From Muribaculaceae bacterium (GTDB taxonomy: Bacteria; Bacteroidota; Bacteroidia; Bacteroidales; Muribaculaceae): a stretch of DNA of 64,000 bases. The stretch is taken from contig JAIDQZ010000134.1 of the NCBI GenBank assembly GCA_029062005.1, positions 1-64,000 of the forward strand, given 5' to 3'. A model generated the notes under the pieces. That model saw only the letters and a list, made by a program, of their open reading frames with translations. It did not search any database and was not told the DNA's origin. Positions 17,379 to 60,669 of the stretch are shown in pieces. Position numbers and translations under genes: made by a program. The stretch's first letter is position 1. Every line of letters starts with the position of its first letter.

Positions 17379-17440
17379 TAATTCTCAATTCAAATTTCTC
17401 AATTCTCAATTCTCAATTCTCAATTCTCAATTCTCAATTA
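17379..17440. repeat. AATTCTC heptamer array overlapping the peptidase stop codon
   Basis: Five perfect head-to-tail AATTCTC units lie at 17401-17435, flanked by degenerate copies from 17379. Read on the peptidase coding strand the unit is GAGAATT. The last codons of the peptidase (L-I-E-N-stop) and its TGA fall inside the array. Because the period is 7 nt, TGA recurs in all three frames. The same array type begins at the stop codons at 24262 and 60529. Confidence 0.85.
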
Positions 17441-18818
17441 AGAAAAGGTGATCCCACGATGGCAATGTGATTGGATCCTGCTTCATCGCTTTCAGAATCT
17501 TGGGACTTACATATTTCTTATCCACTACAAGACGGAAAAGATATTCGTTCATCCAGTCATCGGTGGCTATCAGATATCCGTCGTGTCCTGTATTTCCCCA
17601 GCTGTTTTCTATCAGCCATTTTTTAGGTCTCTCCTTCTCGTCAAGATCCACTCCTGAAAGAGTCATTGCATGTGATGAAGCGCTTGCCCATGATGAGATC
17701 CTTTCTGCCTTGTCCATCCCGAACTTTGTGTCGAAAAGCGACTCGTAGTCGAAGTTGTCCATGTCGAGTGTCCCGCGATCCCTGTCGAGGAATTTGCCCA
17801 CGTCACATGAAAAGTACATCGCCGTGCTGTCTTTTATCGATTTGATAGCCGCCTGCTTCAGGTCTTCCATAGGAACATTGAGGTAGGTCCAGTCCATACC
17901 ATCGTAGCTATGGCGGTCATAGTCGATTCTGTATACCTTCCAGTATTCTCGCGAAGGATCGTTCATGAGCATTATATAGTCGTTTTTCAGATCGTTGCCG
18001 AGCAGTTCCTGATAAAATGACTTCGGAGTGTAGCTCTTGGTCTCTATGGCATTCCCTTTGCTGTCTCGTCTTGTCCATGTGAATTCTGTCGGTGGTTCTC
18101 CAAGAGCAAGAGCAAGCATTCTGTAGACTTCTCCGAGTTGTCTTGTCTTCAATCCCTCAAGAGCCTTTTCATCAGCACCTTTCTCCTTTGCCTGCCGAAG
18201 TCGCAGACCGTCCTCGCGCAGTCTTGTGGCGAGGTGGCGGCGGAATGCTGAAGTGCTGTTGGCAATTTCTGTCTCTGCCATAACCTCAGTCGGCACAACT
18301 CCATATTTGCTTACTATGTCTGCAACACCACAGAACGTGCCTCCGTCTGATATAGGATTCTGGAACAGCCATTCCACCTGGCGGTCTTCCATCGGAAGGT
18401 CGGAGGAGTCTATCACTCCCTGCAGGAACAGGTTGGCTTTTTCGAGCTGGTCGAAGAAGAAGTTATAGTTTTGGGAGAATGTCAGCTTGGAAAGGTCATG
18501 TTTTGCCATCGCCTGGGCGCGAAGCACATTCAGTCCTGTAAATAGCCAGCAGCGCCCTGACGATTTCTGGTCGGTGATTCCCTTTGTCTCCACCTTGTGT
18601 GAGAAATGATCGTCAAATTTGTTGCGCACCTTCTCATTGTATGCGAGTTTTTCAATACCCGTGGCATTCATGGCATTGTGCCTTGCCCTGTTGGCGGCAT
18701 TGTCCTCATATCCTTTCTTGAAGCTGCTGAGCATCTCCTGAGTTATTGCCCCCTTGTCGTCGGCTGCCCCCTGCAAAGATGCTGTGATGATGATTGCCAA
18801 TAAGATTCTGCGTATCAT
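17427..18818 (-). CDS. Secreted C1B cysteine peptidase (bleomycin hydrolase / PepC family)
   Basis: The 463-aa protein has a signal peptide (MIRRILLAIIITASLQGAAD) and the papain-like catalytic set of the bleomycin hydrolase family: Cys90 in QKSSGRCWLFTGLNVLR, His in SASSHAMTLSGVD, and Asn in WLIENSWGNTGHDG. C1B members are usually cytosolic aminopeptidases forming hexamers; the Bacteroidales version with a signal peptide is presumably periplasmic or exported. It lies 11 bp downstream of the FemAB/GNAT-like gene and is likely cotranscribed with it. The last residues and the stop codon are encoded by the start of a heptamer repeat array, which suggests that the array has replaced the original 3' end. 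Confidence 0.88.
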   Translation of the reverse strand: MIRRILLAIIITASLQGAADDKGAITQEMLSSFKKGYEDNAANRARHNAMNATGIEKLAYNEKVRNKFDDHFSHKVETKGITDQKSSGRCWLFTGLNVLRAQAMAKHDLSKLTFSQNYNFFFDQLEKANLFLQGVIDSSDLPMEDRQVEWLFQNPISDGGTFCGVADIVSKYGVVPTEVMAETEIANSTSAFRRHLATRLREDGLRLRQAKEKGADEKALEGLKTRQLGEVYRMLALALGEPPTEFTWTRRDSKGNAIETKSYTPKSFYQELLGNDLKNDYIMLMNDPSREYWKVYRIDYDRHSYDGMDWTYLNVPMEDLKQAAIKSIKDSTAMYFSCDVGKFLDRDRGTLDMDNFDYESLFDTKFGMDKAERISSWASASSHAMTLSGVDLDEKERPKKWLIENSWGNTGHDGYLIATDDWMNEYLFRLVVDKKYVSPKILKAMKQDPITLPSWDHLFLIEN

Positions 18819-24060: not shown

Positions 24061-24262
24061 TTTGTTTGTTGTTAAGTTTTGAGGTTGTTGGGTTGTTGAG
24101 TTGTTGGGTTGTTGGGTTGTTGGGGTTTTTGAGTTTTGAGGTTTTGAGGTTGTTGAGTTGTTGAGGTTTTTGAGGTTTGGGGTTGTTGAGAGAAATAAGA
24201 TAATTATTAAAAATTCTCAATTCTCAATTCTCAATTATAAAAAATTCTCAATTCCCAATTAT
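24061..24262 (-). repeat. Composite boundary repeat (GAGAATT array plus C/A-rich array)
   Basis: On the coding strand the spacer from the GH105-fusion stop codon to the xylE start consists of TAATTGGGAATTGAGAATT-type units, a linker AATAATTATCTTATTTCTCTC, then a long array of CAACAACCC / CCTCAAAAC units reaching almost to the xylE ATG. The same order and linker recur at 60508-60668. It contains nothing else recognisable. Confidence 0.85.
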
Positions 24263-26580
24263 TAAAAGAGATCCCTGAGTTTGCCTCCGTCTTCCCAATG
24301 GTGGTCTTTTGGGAATGGCAGTCCTCCCCAGGCCTTCTGATTGGTGGTGGGAAGCGGGGCATCCGTCCAGAATGGGTGTGAAGCCGGAAGCCCGAGCGGC
24401 AGGAACGCCAGTGAAGTCATATAGAGGCTGCCGTTGTTTGTATACCAGTCGGCGATATTGGGCTGACGTCCGGCAAAACCGATAGTGAGGAAACCTCCTT
24501 CATTGAAGTTTTCCTTGCCGTCATACATGGAGTGCATCACCGATGTCAGTGCGTTGCGCACCTGTCCGTTTGTTAGTCCGGCTGGAAGTTTTTCGTACCA
24601 TGCCATTAAAGCAAGCGGCTGCATGGTAGCCATGCGGTAAGGTATCGAACGCCCGAACACCGGGAAAGTTCCTTCAGGAGAGATCATGCGTTCAAGCACT
24701 ATGCTGTATTTCTGGGCGCGTTTAAGAGCCCTGTCGTAATATTTCGGATAGTGTATTCTTGTCCTTGCCTTTGCATCCTTCATGTTCTGAAGTGTCTCAA
24801 GATACATTGGATGAAACACATAGCTGCTGTAATAGTCATAAGCGAAATCCGGTCCGTCGGCATACCATCCGTCGCCCGTGTACCATTCCTCCATCTTTCT
24901 GATCGCGGAGTTAACCCTGTATTGGTCATAGTCTCCCCCTGCTTTTGCCATGAAGCTTTCCAGAATAGATGAGAAGAGAAGCCAGTTGGTGTAGGGTGGA
25001 TCAATGTTTCTGAGCTGCTTGAAATTATTCAGATACCTATCTTTTGTCTTGCTGTCAAGGGGCTCCCAGAGCGCGTCGTAGGCGCGGATGAAACTTTCTG
25101 CGATATATGCGGCATCCACGAGTATCTGTCCCTCTCCCTGCCACAGCAGGCAGTCTGGCGAATCAGGATCCACAGCGTTGGCATAGCTTTTAAGCGCCAT
25201 TTCGCGGAGTTCCTTTCTCATTTTCCCTTCTTCAGTGTCATCGTCAGGAAGAGCGAGCCAGGGAGCGATTCCTGCCATGAGCCTGCCGAAAGTCTCCATA
25301 TAAGTCACTTTCTTATTGCGTCCGTCCCAGTTGGGGCTTACTTCCACTATCATTTCATCCTGCAGTTTCCCTTCCGACATTTTGCTGAGTACAGGGTAAG
25401 CTATGCTGTATGCAAGATTAGTCCAGTATTTGCGGTCAGGATTACTGTCTTTCTCAAGATGCTTCACATATTCGCATGCGGCAAGCAGGAAAGCCCCTGT
25501 ACCGAAATCCGATGTGGAGTTTTTATCCACCACCTGCCCCGGGATCGCTTTCTCACCAATAGGTTGCACATAACCGATTCGCCCGTCTTTCTGGAGCGCT
25601 TTTGTGCTGAGATATTGCCATCCTTTGAGGGCTGCATCGAGATATTTAGGATCAGTGAGGTAGCCGTTGTTGATACCCCACAGAAGTCCGTAGGTGAAGA
25701 ATGCTGTTCCGCTTGTCTCCGGTCCCGGAGCATGAGCCTCGTCAAGCATCGAGCGGCTCCAGTATCCCCCCGGTTGTTGTGATGCGGTCACAGCATCTGC
25801 GAGCTCTCGGTAGCGCTGTTCGAAGATATCGCGGTGTGCATAATCTTCAGGAAGATCCTGAAGCACTTTTGCGAGTCCCGCAAGCACCCATCCGTCGCCT
25901 CGTGCCCAGAAATCTTTCTTGCCGTTGGCACTCTCATGCTTGGGATACACATATTTGGCATCTCTGTAGTAGAGATGGTCGTCTTTGTCATACATAAGGC
26001 TGTCAGCATACACGAAATATTCATGAAGCTTGTCAAGATACTTTGTATTTCCTGTTGCCTTGTAGAGCTTCGTCATCACCGGCATCACCATATATAGCCC
26101 GTCTGCCCACCACCAGTAGTCTTTCTGAGGCGTGGACATCTGGTGCTCCATAACCTCGCGGGCACGGCGGATGCGCTTGTCTTCGGGAAGGATGTCGTAG
26201 AGGTCGGCGTATGTCTGGAAGCATATCTGCCAGTCTCCGAAGAGGACATGATCCTGCGATTCTCCATAGGTGGCATATTTCCATTTGCTTCTGTCGTTGC
26301 CCTTGGCTCCTTTCCAGTCATTATGGTTTGCCCAGTCTTCGGAATATCGGAGCCAGTCACGGTTACCTGTCAGTCGGTACGCCTCCATGTTGCCTGTGTG
26401 GTATGCCGCCACGTGCCAGAACGGTGTGGACTGCGGATGATTGTTTTTTTGCCAGTTGTCGTTGACTTTCTTTATCATCGCCCTCACTTTTTGCGCTTCG
26501 TCGGCATTGGCGGCGAAGACCGCGGAGAATGTAGCGGTAATGGAGAGCAAGATTATTGATAATCTCTTGAAGTTGATCAT
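24262..26580 (-). CDS. GH105 unsaturated uronyl hydrolase fused to a DUF2264 (GH154-type) domain
   Basis: I start at 26580 (MINFKRLSIILLSITATFSAVFA, a signal peptide), 772 aa; the upstream ORF start at 26631 lies above the promoter. Residues of about 30-395 form the alpha6/alpha6 GH105/GH88 barrel, with the expected Asp residues in WWWADGLYMVMPVMTKLY and FWARGDGWVLAGLAKVL and the motif STSDFGTGAFLLAACEY. From about residue 405 to the end is a DUF2264 domain (LAYSIAYPVLSKM, METFGRLMAGIAPWLAL, WLLFSSILESFMA, YSSYVFHPMYLE, ISPEGTFPVFGRSIPYR), which I recall as CAZy family GH154 with beta-glucuronidase activity. Together it would remove saturated and unsaturated uronic acids. The fusion is intact with no stop or frameshift. 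Confidence 0.85.
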   Translation of the reverse strand: MINFKRLSIILLSITATFSAVFAANADEAQKVRAMIKKVNDNWQKNNHPQSTPFWHVAAYHTGNMEAYRLTGNRDWLRYSEDWANHNDWKGAKGNDRSKWKYATYGESQDHVLFGDWQICFQTYADLYDILPEDKRIRRAREVMEHQMSTPQKDYWWWADGLYMVMPVMTKLYKATGNTKYLDKLHEYFVYADSLMYDKDDHLYYRDAKYVYPKHESANGKKDFWARGDGWVLAGLAKVLQDLPEDYAHRDIFEQRYRELADAVTASQQPGGYWSRSMLDEAHAPGPETSGTAFFTYGLLWGINNGYLTDPKYLDAALKGWQYLSTKALQKDGRIGYVQPIGEKAIPGQVVDKNSTSDFGTGAFLLAACEYVKHLEKDSNPDRKYWTNLAYSIAYPVLSKMSEGKLQDEMIVEVSPNWDGRNKKVTYMETFGRLMAGIAPWLALPDDDTEEGKMRKELREMALKSYANAVDPDSPDCLLWQGEGQILVDAAYIAESFIRAYDALWEPLDSKTKDRYLNNFKQLRNIDPPYTNWLLFSSILESFMAKAGGDYDQYRVNSAIRKMEEWYTGDGWYADGPDFAYDYYSSYVFHPMYLETLQNMKDAKARTRIHYPKYYDRALKRAQKYSIVLERMISPEGTFPVFGRSIPYRMATMQPLALMAWYEKLPAGLTNGQVRNALTSVMHSMYDGKENFNEGGFLTIGFAGRQPNIADWYTNNGSLYMTSLAFLPLGLPASHPFWTDAPLPTTNQKAWGGLPFPKDHHWEDGGKLRDLF

Positions 26581-26611
26581 GACGTATAGGTGTCTTATTT
26601 GGAAATTACTG

Positions 26612-26644
26612 CAAAAGTAATCAAAAAACATGAAATATCACCAA
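26612..26644 (-). promoter_or_regulatory. Promoter of the GH105-DUF2264 gene
   Basis: The minus strand has TTGG (one mismatch to TTTG), 21 nt, then TACTTTTG, a perfect TAnnTTTG. It lies about 32 nt upstream of the ATG at 26580 and downstream of the ORF-track start. Confidence 0.55.
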
Positions 26645-54990: not shown

Positions 54991-57753
54991 ATGAAAAGGT
55001 TGAAATCTCTGATGCTCGGGGTGGTGCTGATGTCGATGGGTATTAATGCAAATGCCCAGGATCCCGACTTCCATATATATCTGTGTCTGGGACAGTCCAA
55101 CATGGAGGGCAGCGCTCCGATAGAACCCGTAGACCGCGAAAATATTCCGTCACGCTTCAAGGTGATGGCAACCAGCGACTACAGCAATACAAAACGCTCT
55201 ACAGGCGAATGGTATGAGGCTGTGCCTCCATTGCTAAGGGAGAATACTGGTCTGACACTTATGGATTATTTCGGACGTACAATGGTAGACAATCTCCCCG
55301 AAAATATCACAGTCGGAGTAGTTCCTGTGGCTGTCGGAGGATGCAAGATAGAGCATCTGAGCAAAGACTATGATCCGGCTACGGTCACTTCAGAGGCAGA
55401 CTGGTTTCAGGGTTTCATGAAGGCATATGACAATAAACCCTACGACCGGCTTTTGGAATGTGCTAAAAAAGCGCAGAAAGATGGAGTGATCAAGGGAATA
55501 CTGCTTCATCAGGGGGAATCCAACACCGGAGAAAAGGAGTGGCCCGAGAAGGTAAGGAAAGTCTACGACAACCTTCTTGCAGATCTCGGACTTGCACCTA
55601 ATTCCGTTCCCCTTATTGCAGGCGAGGTGGTCTCTTCCGAAAAAGGCGGTGTATGTGGAAGCATGAACCCTATAATCAATACGCTGCCGGATTATCTTCC
55701 GGTCGCTCATGTCGTGTCATCAGCCAACCTTCCCCAGCGTGGCGACGGACTTCATTTCACTTCTTATGGATATCGTGAGCTTGGAAGCCGCTATGCAAAG
55801 GAGATGCTTTCATTAATGGGCATTGACGATCCTAAGCTCAACTATTCGGCTGAGGCTAATTTCATACCCTCTTCCTATGAAGTGAAGAGTCCTGACGGAA
55901 ATACTGTGGTGACAGTGTCAGACAACGGAATGACTTTGACCTACAGTATCGCTTATGACGGCAATGTGTTCCTGCTTCCGTCTCCACTTGGGGTGAAAAC
56001 CAATATCGGTGATTTTACATCCGGACTTGATATAACTTCGGTTTCAGGTGTGAAACAGGTGGCGGATTCATATTCACTTGCAAATATCAAGAAAAGCAAG
56101 GTGGACTATGTCGCCAACGAGGAGACTTTCACCGTGTCGCAGGGAGGCGTTCCGGTATTTGACCTTCAGATGCGTGTAAGTGACAATAATGTGGCGTTCC
56201 GCTATAGGTTGTTGCCCATGGGTGAAACTCTTTGCGCCGTAGTGGACAGTGAACTCACCGGATTTGTTTTTCCTGACGGCACCACTACTTTCCTATGTCC
56301 TCAGATGCAGCCAATGACAGGATTTGCAAGGACGGCTCCCAGCTATGAGACTAATTACGACCTTGACGATGTGATGGGTAAGAATGGATGGGGCAACGGC
56401 TACTCTTTCCCGTGCCTTTTCAGGAACGGCGACAACGGATGGACTTTGATTTCAGAGACCGGCATTGCGGGAGACTATTGCGCGTCTCACCTTGCCAATA
56501 AGTCGGGAGGGGAGTATTGCATAGCATATCCGAATAAGAACGAGAACAATGGTTTCGGTTCTACCGGTGCCCAGATTGCACTGCCGGGATTCACTCCATG
56601 GCGTACTGTGACTGTCGGAGCCGATCTTGCCCCCATAGTTGAGACCACTGTGCCCTTTGACCTCGTGGAGCCACTTTATAATCCGTCGAAGGATTACGAT
56701 TACGGCAAGGGAAGCTGGAGCTGGATCATCAAGATGGATCCGAGCTGTAATTTCGAGGAACAGAAGAAATATATCGACTTCTCCGCCGCAATGGGCTGGG
56801 ATACCGTGCTTGTGGATGCCTTGTGGGATACACAGATAGGATATGAGGGCATAGAAAAACTCGCAGCATATGGAAAGGAAAAGGGTGTGGACCTTTATCT
56901 GTGGTATAATTCCAATGGAGCTTGGAACGATGCCCCCCAGGGTCCGCGCGGCATCATGAACGATATTGTGAAGCGCCGCAAGGATATGGCATGGATGCAG
57001 AAAAATGGTATTCGAGGCATAAAGGTTGACTTTTTCGGAGGTGACAAGCAGGAGACCATGAGACTCTACCATGATATTCTTGCCGATGCCAACGATCACG
57101 GAATACTCGTGATTTTCCATGGTTGTACTCTTCCGAGAGGATGGGAAAGGATGTATCCAAACTTCGCAGCTGCAGAGGCGGTGCTTGCAAGCGAGAACCT
57201 TCACTTCTCGCAGGGGATGTGTGATGCGGAGGCAAAAAACGCCTGCATCCATCCTTTTGTGCGCAACACCGTAGGAAGTATGGATTTCGGAGGAAGCACA
57301 CTGAATAAATACTATTCAACAGACAATGCCCGTGGTTCGAAGCGCATGACAAGCGATGTGTTCGCTCTTGCCACTGCGGTATTGTTCCAGAGTCCGGTGC
57401 AGCACTTCGCTATGGCACCCAATAATCTTGAGGATGCTCCGGCATGGGCGGTGGAGTTTATGAAGAATGTGCCGACTACATGGGATGAGGTAAGGTTTAT
57501 CGACGGTTATCCCGGTAAGTATATCGTCATGGCTCGCCGTAGTGGCGATGACTGGTATGTGGCGGGTATAAATGCTCAGGATGATCCCGTCACTGTAGAT
57601 GTTGAACTTCCGTCACTGGCGGTAGGAAAACCGATTTCGATGTATAGCGATGACAAAAACCTTATAGGTTCTGTCCGTACTGTTAAGGCAGACAAGAAAG
57701 GAAAAGTCAGAATGACGATTCCCAAAAACGGAGGTGCAGTCGTCAAATACTGA
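54991..57753 (+). CDS. Fusion of CE6/SASA-type esterase and GH97 glycosidase
   Basis: The 920-aa protein has a signal peptide (ending GINANAQ). The first domain (about 23-285) is an esterase with Ser36 in LCLGQSNMEG, LLHQGESNT and DGLHFTSYGYR, strongly similar to the preceding gene product. From about residue 288 to the end is a complete GH97: N-terminal beta-sandwich (SPDGNTVVTVSDNGMTLTYSI), (beta/alpha)8 barrel and C-terminal domain. Asp680 in GIKVDFFGGDK occupies the place of the nucleophile of retaining GH97 enzymes such as alpha-galactosidases, whereas inverting SusB-type members use Glu residues elsewhere. It has no C-terminal tail like its neighbours, so is probably periplasmic. It may remove acetyl and alpha-galactosyl decorations. 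Confidence 0.9.
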   Translation: MKRLKSLMLGVVLMSMGINANAQDPDFHIYLCLGQSNMEGSAPIEPVDRENIPSRFKVMATSDYSNTKRSTGEWYEAVPPLLRENTGLTLMDYFGRTMVDNLPENITVGVVPVAVGGCKIEHLSKDYDPATVTSEADWFQGFMKAYDNKPYDRLLECAKKAQKDGVIKGILLHQGESNTGEKEWPEKVRKVYDNLLADLGLAPNSVPLIAGEVVSSEKGGVCGSMNPIINTLPDYLPVAHVVSSANLPQRGDGLHFTSYGYRELGSRYAKEMLSLMGIDDPKLNYSAEANFIPSSYEVKSPDGNTVVTVSDNGMTLTYSIAYDGNVFLLPSPLGVKTNIGDFTSGLDITSVSGVKQVADSYSLANIKKSKVDYVANEETFTVSQGGVPVFDLQMRVSDNNVAFRYRLLPMGETLCAVVDSELTGFVFPDGTTTFLCPQMQPMTGFARTAPSYETNYDLDDVMGKNGWGNGYSFPCLFRNGDNGWTLISETGIAGDYCASHLANKSGGEYCIAYPNKNENNGFGSTGAQIALPGFTPWRTVTVGADLAPIVETTVPFDLVEPLYNPSKDYDYGKGSWSWIIKMDPSCNFEEQKKYIDFSAAMGWDTVLVDALWDTQIGYEGIEKLAAYGKEKGVDLYLWYNSNGAWNDAPQGPRGIMNDIVKRRKDMAWMQKNGIRGIKVDFFGGDKQETMRLYHDILADANDHGILVIFHGCTLPRGWERMYPNFAAAEAVLASENLHFSQGMCDAEAKNACIHPFVRNTVGSMDFGGSTLNKYYSTDNARGSKRMTSDVFALATAVLFQSPVQHFAMAPNNLEDAPAWAVEFMKNVPTTWDEVRFIDGYPGKYIVMARRSGDDWYVAGINAQDDPVTVDVELPSLAVGKPISMYSDDKNLIGSVRTVKADKKGKVRMTIPKNGGAVVKY

Positions 57754-57783
57754 TGATTAAGGATCCACTGATGATTAAGGATC
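57749..57783 (+). repeat. Tandem 18-bp repeat across the esterase-GH97 stop codon
   Basis: ACTGATGATTAAGGATCC is followed directly by ACTGATGATTAAGGATC. The first copy supplies the TGA stop of the fusion gene and both copies contain TGA and TAA. A GATC-rich stretch follows up to the GPH symporter start. Confidence 0.75.
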
Positions 57784-59392: not shown

Positions 59393-60529
59393 ATGAAAAA
59401 GCACTTATTACCATATTTCTGCATAACCGTTTTAGTCGCTTCGTGCTCATCCTCGAATGCAGAGCAGATACCAACCGTAAAGGACCATTTTAAAGATGAT
59501 TTCCTGATAGGCGCGGCTTTACCTGTGCGTCATGTCGATGGTATGGATCCGAAGGCAGACTCGATCGTAACCCTGCATTTTAATTCGATTGTGGCTGAAA
59601 ACTGCATGAAAAATGAAAAAATTCAGCCGGAAGAGGGAAAATTCTTCTGGGATGATGCCGATAAGTTTGTGAAGTACGGTGAAGACCGTGATATGGCGAT
59701 AATCGGGCATGCTCTTGTATGGCATTCACAGCTCGCTCCATGGTTCACAAAGGATGCCGTTGGAAACGAAGTAAGTCCGGATGTCCTGAAGCAGCGTATG
59801 AAAGATCATATCTATGCCGTAGTTGGCAGATATAAAGGAAAGATAAAAGGCTGGGATGTTGTCAATGAGGCTATCGTAGATGACGGAAGCTACCGTAACT
59901 CCCCCTTCTACCGCATACTCGGCGAGGATTACATCCCTCTCGCATTCCAATATGCACATGAGGCGGATCCGGATGCTGAACTCTACATCAACGACTTCTC
60001 GATGTTCCTTCCTGAGAAAAGAGAGGCTTACGTGAAGATCGTCAACGATCTCAAGAAACGCGGAATACGTATCGACGGCATAGGTATGCAGAGCCATATA
60101 GGTATGGATTATCCTGAATTTGACGAGTATGAGAAGAGTATCGTCGCTTTCGGCAATACAGGCTGCGACGTTATGATAACGGAACTTGATATGTCTGCTC
60201 TTCCCACAATAGAGAAGGGCGCCGACATAGGCGCAATCTTCCGCATGACTCCCGAAGAACGACGTGAGGCATTGAAGAAATTCAATGTATATCCCGACGG
60301 TCTTCCCGAAGATGTCAGCAAAGAATGGAATGACCGTATGGCTCAGGTATTTGCCCTTTATAAAAAGCATTCCGACAAGATATCACGTGTCACCTGGTGG
60401 GGCACTACTGACGGTATGTCATGGAAAAACGGTTTCCCTATCCCGGGACGTACGGATTATCCCCTGCTCTTCGACCGCGAATACAACATGAAGCCTTTCA
60501 TGCAGAAAATAATTGAGAACTTAGAATAA
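59393..60529 (+). CDS. Second GH10 xylanase lipoprotein
   Basis: The 378-aa protein has a lipoprotein signal with Cys18 ([12 protein letters not shown]) and a compact GH10 barrel: [11 protein letters not shown]-like [16 protein letters not shown], acid/base Glu159 in [24 protein letters not shown] and nucleophile Glu264 in [10 protein letters not shown], ending [16 protein letters not shown]. Only about 360 residues after the anchor, it has no extra modules, so it probably acts on shorter xylo-oligosaccharides inside the outer membrane, in contrast to the core GH10 at 47 kb. The last codons (I-I-E-N-L-E-stop) are part of the GAGAATT-type repeat that fills the space to the next gene. Confidence 0.93.
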
Positions 60530-60668
60530 TTGAGAATTGAGAATTGAGAATTTAGAATTTAGAATAATTGTCTAATTTCCCTCCACAACCTCAAAACCTC
60601 AAGACTCCACAACCTCACAACCTCAAAACCCCACAACTCCACAACCAAAAAACTCAAAAACCAAAAAA
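60508..60668 (+). repeat. Composite boundary repeat (GAGAATT array plus C/A-rich array)
   Basis: From the last codons of GH10 the sequence is AATTGAGAAC-type heptamers, then AATAATTGTCTAATTTCCCTC, then about 80 bp of CACAACCTCAAAACC-type units ending at the GH43 ATG at 60670. Order, linker and orientation match the element at 24061-24262. An ORF-track start with TTG at 60568 reads through the C/A-rich array and is not credible. Confidence 0.85.
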
Positions 60669-60669
60669 A

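Follow-up and report, generated by a model that had tools for sequence, protein, structure and literature searches.

Outward-reading short tandem repeat arrays at gene edges in a Muribaculaceae genome

Results

Two three-part spacers and a third heptamer array

Within the window (the whole 64,000-nucleotide stretch that was analysed), two intergenic spacers share a three-part layout, at 24061-24264 on the minus strand and at 60527-60669 on the plus strand. The first is flanked by a GH88/105-DUF2264 fusion gene (24262-26631) and an MFS sugar transporter gene (Sugar_tr), and the second by GH10 and GH43 genes. On the coding strand, both run from AATTGAG-type heptamers at the stop codon through a 21-nt linker into a C/A-rich octamer array that ends a few bases short of the next ATG; the order described in the original prediction at 24 kb and again at 60 kb was thus found at both sites as claimed. 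At 24 kb, the stop codon of the fusion gene is the TAA at 24264-24262 (minus strand), after which the coding strand reads TAATAATTGGGAATTGAGAATTTTTTATAATTGAGAATTGAGAATTGAGAATTTTT; past the linker, approximately 125 nt of CAACAACCC/CCTCAAAAC units reach the leader of the transporter gene, whose ATG occupies 24050-24048 (minus strand). At 60 kb, between the GH10 stop (60527-60529) and the GH43 ATG (60670), the AATTGAG array at 60528-60565 is preceded by degenerate AATTGAG units that begin inside the last GH10 codons, from about 60508. Both sites listed at the outset are therefore real, but a third AATTGAG array in the window had been missed. The features are:

24210-24264, minus strand: post-stop heptamer array AATTGAG/AATTGGG, starting at the GH88/105-DUF2264 stop codon
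24188-24208, minus strand: linker AATAATTATCTTATTTCTCTC, between the two arrays of the 24-kb spacer
24061-24187, minus strand: C/A-rich octamer array, immediately before the MFS sugar transporter start
60508-60565, plus strand: heptamer array, with degenerate units in the last GH10 codons and AATTGAG units from the stop codon
60563-60583, plus strand: linker AATAATTGTCTAATTTCCCTC, 18/21 identical to the 24-kb linker
60584-60668, plus strand: C/A-rich array, immediately before the GH43 start
17380-17439, minus strand: third heptamer array, located where the C1 peptidase gene (17427-18818) terminates

The window arrays had TRF scores of 50-179, and (GAGAATT)2 matched 14 times in the window versus 0.93 expected. 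SusC/SusD-like proteins and a hybrid two-component regulator are encoded near the arrays, a neighbourhood that fits a Bacteroidota polysaccharide-utilisation region. Separately, an 18-bp unit, ACTGATGATTAAGGATCC, is perfectly duplicated in tandem at 57749-57783, at the end of the ORF 54991-57753.

The linker is confined to the two window copies, and repeat words differ at orthologous spacers

The linker pattern matched twice in the window versus 0.02 expected. The two linkers, 36 kb apart, are alike to a degree reached only once when one of them was dinucleotide-shuffled 3000 times, a figure that overstates the case since the pair was chosen by eye; a common origin is plausible. Throughout the 3.06-Mb genome, only the two window sites matched, the next best sites having three mismatches, and across 111 genomes of the genus the match frequency was approximately that of the reversed control. 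On these distributions the linker is neither dispersed nor genome-wide, and its presence in both window copies most likely reflects a local copying event or, in part, chance.

Orthologous spacers were then compared. In relatives at 86-87% protein identity, the words that follow the stop in the GH105-xylE spacers are CTTAAGT, AATGGAG/AATTGAG or AGTATTGA, and CAACTTAAC units precede the start; in a relative at 81% this spacer is short and plain. The GH10-GH43 spacers of relatives contain ATCATGATAA, CCCTTAA, CCCTAAA or AATTAGCC words. Position and order thus recur while the words differ, and the comparison, which had been proposed as a check on the composite, returned other repeat words or none, and no linker. 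Local seeds are present in relatives, in the form of the leader AACTTAACAAC and GAGAAY codons, and the GH10 orthologs of near relatives likewise end in GAGAAY-type codons.

The original prediction had taken the whole spacer for a single mobile or templated cassette (heptamer block, linker and C/A block) that would enter intergenic positions and bring along a stop and a leader, and had staked this on the linker being found elsewhere. Such a cassette would account for two copies in like order and sense whose linkers agree at 18 of 21 positions, but it sits poorly with a genome search in which the linker was absent beyond those two copies and a genus search in which it matched at about control level, with relatives lacking it at both orthologous sites, and with the observation that AATTGAG arrays mostly lack a C/A partner and C/A arrays mostly an AATTGAG partner. 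A third spacer, L085:6668-6899, has an end array and a start array in like order around a different middle, a hairpin-ended GTAGGGACGCACGG element. No whole unit conserved at several unrelated sites, as in a mobile element or MITE, was found, the linker occurring at two sites and relatives being without it. The distribution of the linker and the orthologous spacers already largely refute the cassette reading, which we regard as highly improbable. The 24-kb composite is probably two independent gene-edge arrays with a short remnant between them.

An insertion at the C1 peptidase gene

At the 17.4-kb array, outgroup species have a C1 peptidase ending in ...SWDHLF* or a sequence close to it. The C-terminus in this genome, and in one relative, is ...SWDHLFLIEN*, and the last codons and the stop lie inside the AATTGAG array, which provides a new stop and a four-residue extension (LIEN). 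Five other relatives carry TAATKCA arrays at the site, with the reading frame running into them, and in another the spacer is short and has no array. Because outgroups end in SWDHLF* and this genome ends inside the array, an insertion replaced the ancestral stop, the word at the site later differing between species. Five relatives (L388, L389, L391, L394 and L395) share a similar middle segment, CTCCAACTGAGAACTTGTCTGAGTGGAG, downstream of the C1 peptidase stop, flanked by TAATKCA arrays in opposite orientations; it may be a bidirectional terminator or a small element.

Arrays read outward from the nearest gene

The 18-mer AATTGAGAATTGAGAATT had 76 exact matches in the genome versus 0 for the pattern read backwards; AATTGAG recurs at roughly 50 sites, and a 7-nt tandem unit is spread over many spacers. 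Arrays are nearly absent from genes. Among spacer arrays in stretches of three relatives, period 7 predominates, and in-gene arrays have mostly periods 9 to 12. For orientation, gene edges were taken from ORF calls, and counts came from targeted stretches around repeat matches in this genome and from stretches of the three relatives, a convenience sample in which the stretches of genome G005 include loci picked by earlier matches.

AATTGAG heptamer and G/T octamer arrays obey an edge rule: they read 5′ to 3′ outward from the nearest gene, in sense after a stop and in antisense before a start. In this genome, of the AATTGAG arrays no more than 40 nt from a gene, 44 point outward and 4 inward (32:2 at ends, 12:2 at starts); for the G/T (C/A) octamer arrays the counts are 33 and 5 (26:1 at starts). 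With five words pooled over four genomes and arrays restricted to those 3-40 nt clear of the edge, the ratio was 40:9 outward at starts (p = 9e-6) and still 37:4 at ends (p = 1e-7), where some other counts profit from a stop that lies within the array; the p-values are descriptive, as the words were chosen after inspecting the data. Farther than 40 nt from a gene, the outward bias of the main word fades (8:7 and 13:7). Where one word occupies both edges of a spacer, the left array was plus and the right minus in 16 of 21 cases, and the opposite arrangement never occurred. TAATKCA before starts was outward in 12 cases and inward in 3, and TTAAGRG and GTTTAG words were mostly outward. When arrays were drawn from several phyla by searching with the word itself, a set biased by its TAA-containing probe, those within 30 nt of a gene were outward 28:4 at ends and 9:4 at starts. 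Plain spacers have no G/C skew (-0.02 and 0.005), which rules out background base composition as the cause of orientation. The expectation that arrays are bound to spacers, anchored at stop and start edges and strongly oriented was borne out by these counts.

These counts also bear on a neutral origin, in which slippage would be tolerated anywhere outside genes and orientation would come only from ORF-calling bias and base composition. Consistent with neutral microsatellites, genes are nearly free of arrays, words and lengths turn over quickly, and distal arrays show little bias. Polarity is nevertheless strong in arrays clear of the edge, the background is without skew, arrays swallowed into ORFs would lower the outward count at starts, and the same rule has been published for Xanthomonas and Nostoc. 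We consider this explanation improbable.

As further observations, a contig scan (loci L123-L202) found the word TAATTGAGAATTGAG in Bacteroidales, Clostridia, Cyanobacteria, Desulfonema, Blastocatellia, Planctomycetota and others. For phage carriage, the 21-mer was found in only 40 stretches of the whole viral collection. In the assembly, such arrays lie at or next to numerous contig ends (C6, C20, C29, C39, C80, C82, C96, C104, C112, C126, C139 and C142), and the repeats therefore probably break short-read assembly and are undercounted.

Translation, folding and quadruplex motifs

Read in sense, the heptamer array has stops in all three frames, as had been proposed. This multi-frame stop cannot explain orientation in general, because outward words include TTAAGRG and GTTTAG (GTTTWRG), with stops in both orientations, and the published GGGAATC repeats, with stops in neither orientation and yet outward; these words rule out the three-frame stop as a general cause. 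TAATKCA before starts places ATG triplets in the sense leader. None of the frames of the C/A array contains a start codon, and the predicted folding energy of the leader was 0 kcal/mol at both sites, which agrees with the unstructured leader of the original prediction. In Flavobacterium, initiation is tuned by structure and A-richness (PMC6847099), and the predicted C/A leader would fit Bacteroidota initiation tuned in this manner and not by SD.

No stable post-stop hairpin of the Rho-independent terminator type was found, with folding no better than in shuffles (z -0.32 and 0.84), and Rfam covariance models at the gathering threshold matched only a tRNA in the window. Shuffle-level folding and the missing Rfam match at the arrays rule out a terminator or structured RNA. 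The G3+L1-7 quadruplex motif was absent from either strand of the three window arrays, ruling out a G-quadruplex as their cause.

Discussion

How oriented arrays could arise

Spacer location, fixed outward direction, word turnover and stop replacement are established. The explanation that we prefer, with a probability of about 0.6 for the whole of it including the two-array reading of the 24-kb spacer, is that independent edge arrays arise by slippage and copying and are kept where a gene edge tolerates them. Of the two arrays in a spacer, one would extend away from the upstream gene's stop and the other away from the downstream gene's start. Growth and spread may occur by replication slippage and template-switch copying between similar repeats, as suggested by the tandem structure, the shared words and the visible local seeds. 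Arrays would then be retained only at positions and in directions tolerated by the gene edge: the sense strand following a stop would offer a stop in all frames, and the C/A-rich strand ahead of a start would form an unstructured leader without spurious starts, suited to non-SD initiation in Bacteroidota. Translational tolerance alone does not predict every word, since TAATKCA brings ATG and TTAAGRG/GTTTWRG stop both ways, and slippage from local seeds fails to explain one word at approximately 50 sites or in many phyla.

The main rival is writing at the DNA level, whereby a spacer would be broken back to its gene edges, each 3′ end extended outward with the repeat word and the ends joined. 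The resulting spacers would carry inverted arrays at their two ends, much as when telomeres are added and then fused, and translation would play no part. It would explain why arrays point outward at stop and start edges alike, whatever the transcription, why one-word spacers never show the minus-to-plus arrangement, why the rule also holds for words without stop/start asymmetry, and how an ancestral stop at a coding edge was overwritten. However, 16 of 21 is about what independent outward edges would yield, some relatives keep a common middle segment between both arrays, and this genome (95.7% completeness) has no RVT_1 and no Ku match. The missing matches speak against reverse transcriptase and Ku/NHEJ, the two obvious candidates, as the generator in this genome and not against other enzymes. 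We judge DNA-level writing unlikely. Its extension to the group, in which spacers would be rewritten outward from gene edges with species-specific words running 5′ to 3′ on both sides, leaving a telomere-addition-like scar without a recognisable reverse transcriptase or Ku, is more doubtful still.

Relation to known repeats

The present spacer is a case of a known, poorly explained class, intergenic short tandem repeats that are mostly heptamers and here also include an octamer. Cyanobacterial short tandemly repeated repetitive (STRR) heptamers are heptanucleotide arrays dispersed in spacers, and by this general description the present arrays resemble them; we know of no edge-orientation rule for STRR heptamers as described. 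Calothrix heptanucleotides are cited in PMC4692102.

A literature search on Bacteroidetes heptamer arrays returned two relevant studies, MacGregor 2015 and Rehm et al. 2015. The latter reported GGGAATC/GGGGATT (GGGNATC / GGGGA(T/C)T) repeats in Xanthomonas and Nostoc with the same strand-position rule (PMC4692102); the edge rule was already published for GGGNATC repeats. Both sets are spacer heptamers close to genes (within 50 bp for the published repeats). They occupy the coding strand where they follow a stop and the non-coding strand where they precede a start, form paired inverted arrays and vary in sequence between related genomes (PMC4692102). Unlike the published word, which forms G-quadruplexes (PMC4692102), the present arrays are without the G3 motif on either strand, and the rule spans several unrelated words and an octamer. 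TAACTGA direct repeats of Beggiatoaceae, Cyanobacteria and Bacteroidetes (MacGregor 2015, PMC4679880) are likewise intergenic heptamers with all-frame stops in one orientation, sometimes overlapping the upstream stop and patchy across phyla. In the Beggiatoaceae (BOGUAY) genome, however, they mostly point towards the start codon (PMC4679880), opposite to the outward ratios at starts here (12:2 and 26:1), and a forward orientation towards the start, ending a few nucleotides upstream, is not the pattern of the present arrays.

The strand-position rule was earlier tied to quadruplex-forming words in two unrelated lineages and discussed together with quadruplexes. Here it holds for several words that are unable to form quadruplexes and that differ at orthologous spacers, and the rule is therefore separable from the word. 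How spacers acquire oriented repeats can now be tested by comparing closely related genomes, and the arrays can shift a stop codon and lengthen a protein.

Other repeats in the spacers

CAAGAGT/CAAGAACC forms a further heptamer family, mid-spacer and without orientation bias (L104:7409-7501, L105:3235-3316, L105:5714-5760, L078:24-105); CAAGAGT arrays (SEG) showed no polarity in this genome. A dispersed hairpin-ended element, GGTAGGGACGCACGG..CGTGCGTCC ... GGACGCACGG..CCGTGCGTCCCTACC, sits mid-spacer in many spacers of the genome, and by appearance it resembles the GTAG-tagged REP class (PMC3733652). Its copies include:

L065:1640-1770, hairpin-ended dispersed element
L068:7840-7940, hairpin-ended dispersed element
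L074:150-260, hairpin-ended dispersed element
L085:6768-6870, hairpin-ended dispersed element
L091:4477-4585, hairpin-ended dispersed element
L116:1-80, hairpin-ended dispersed element
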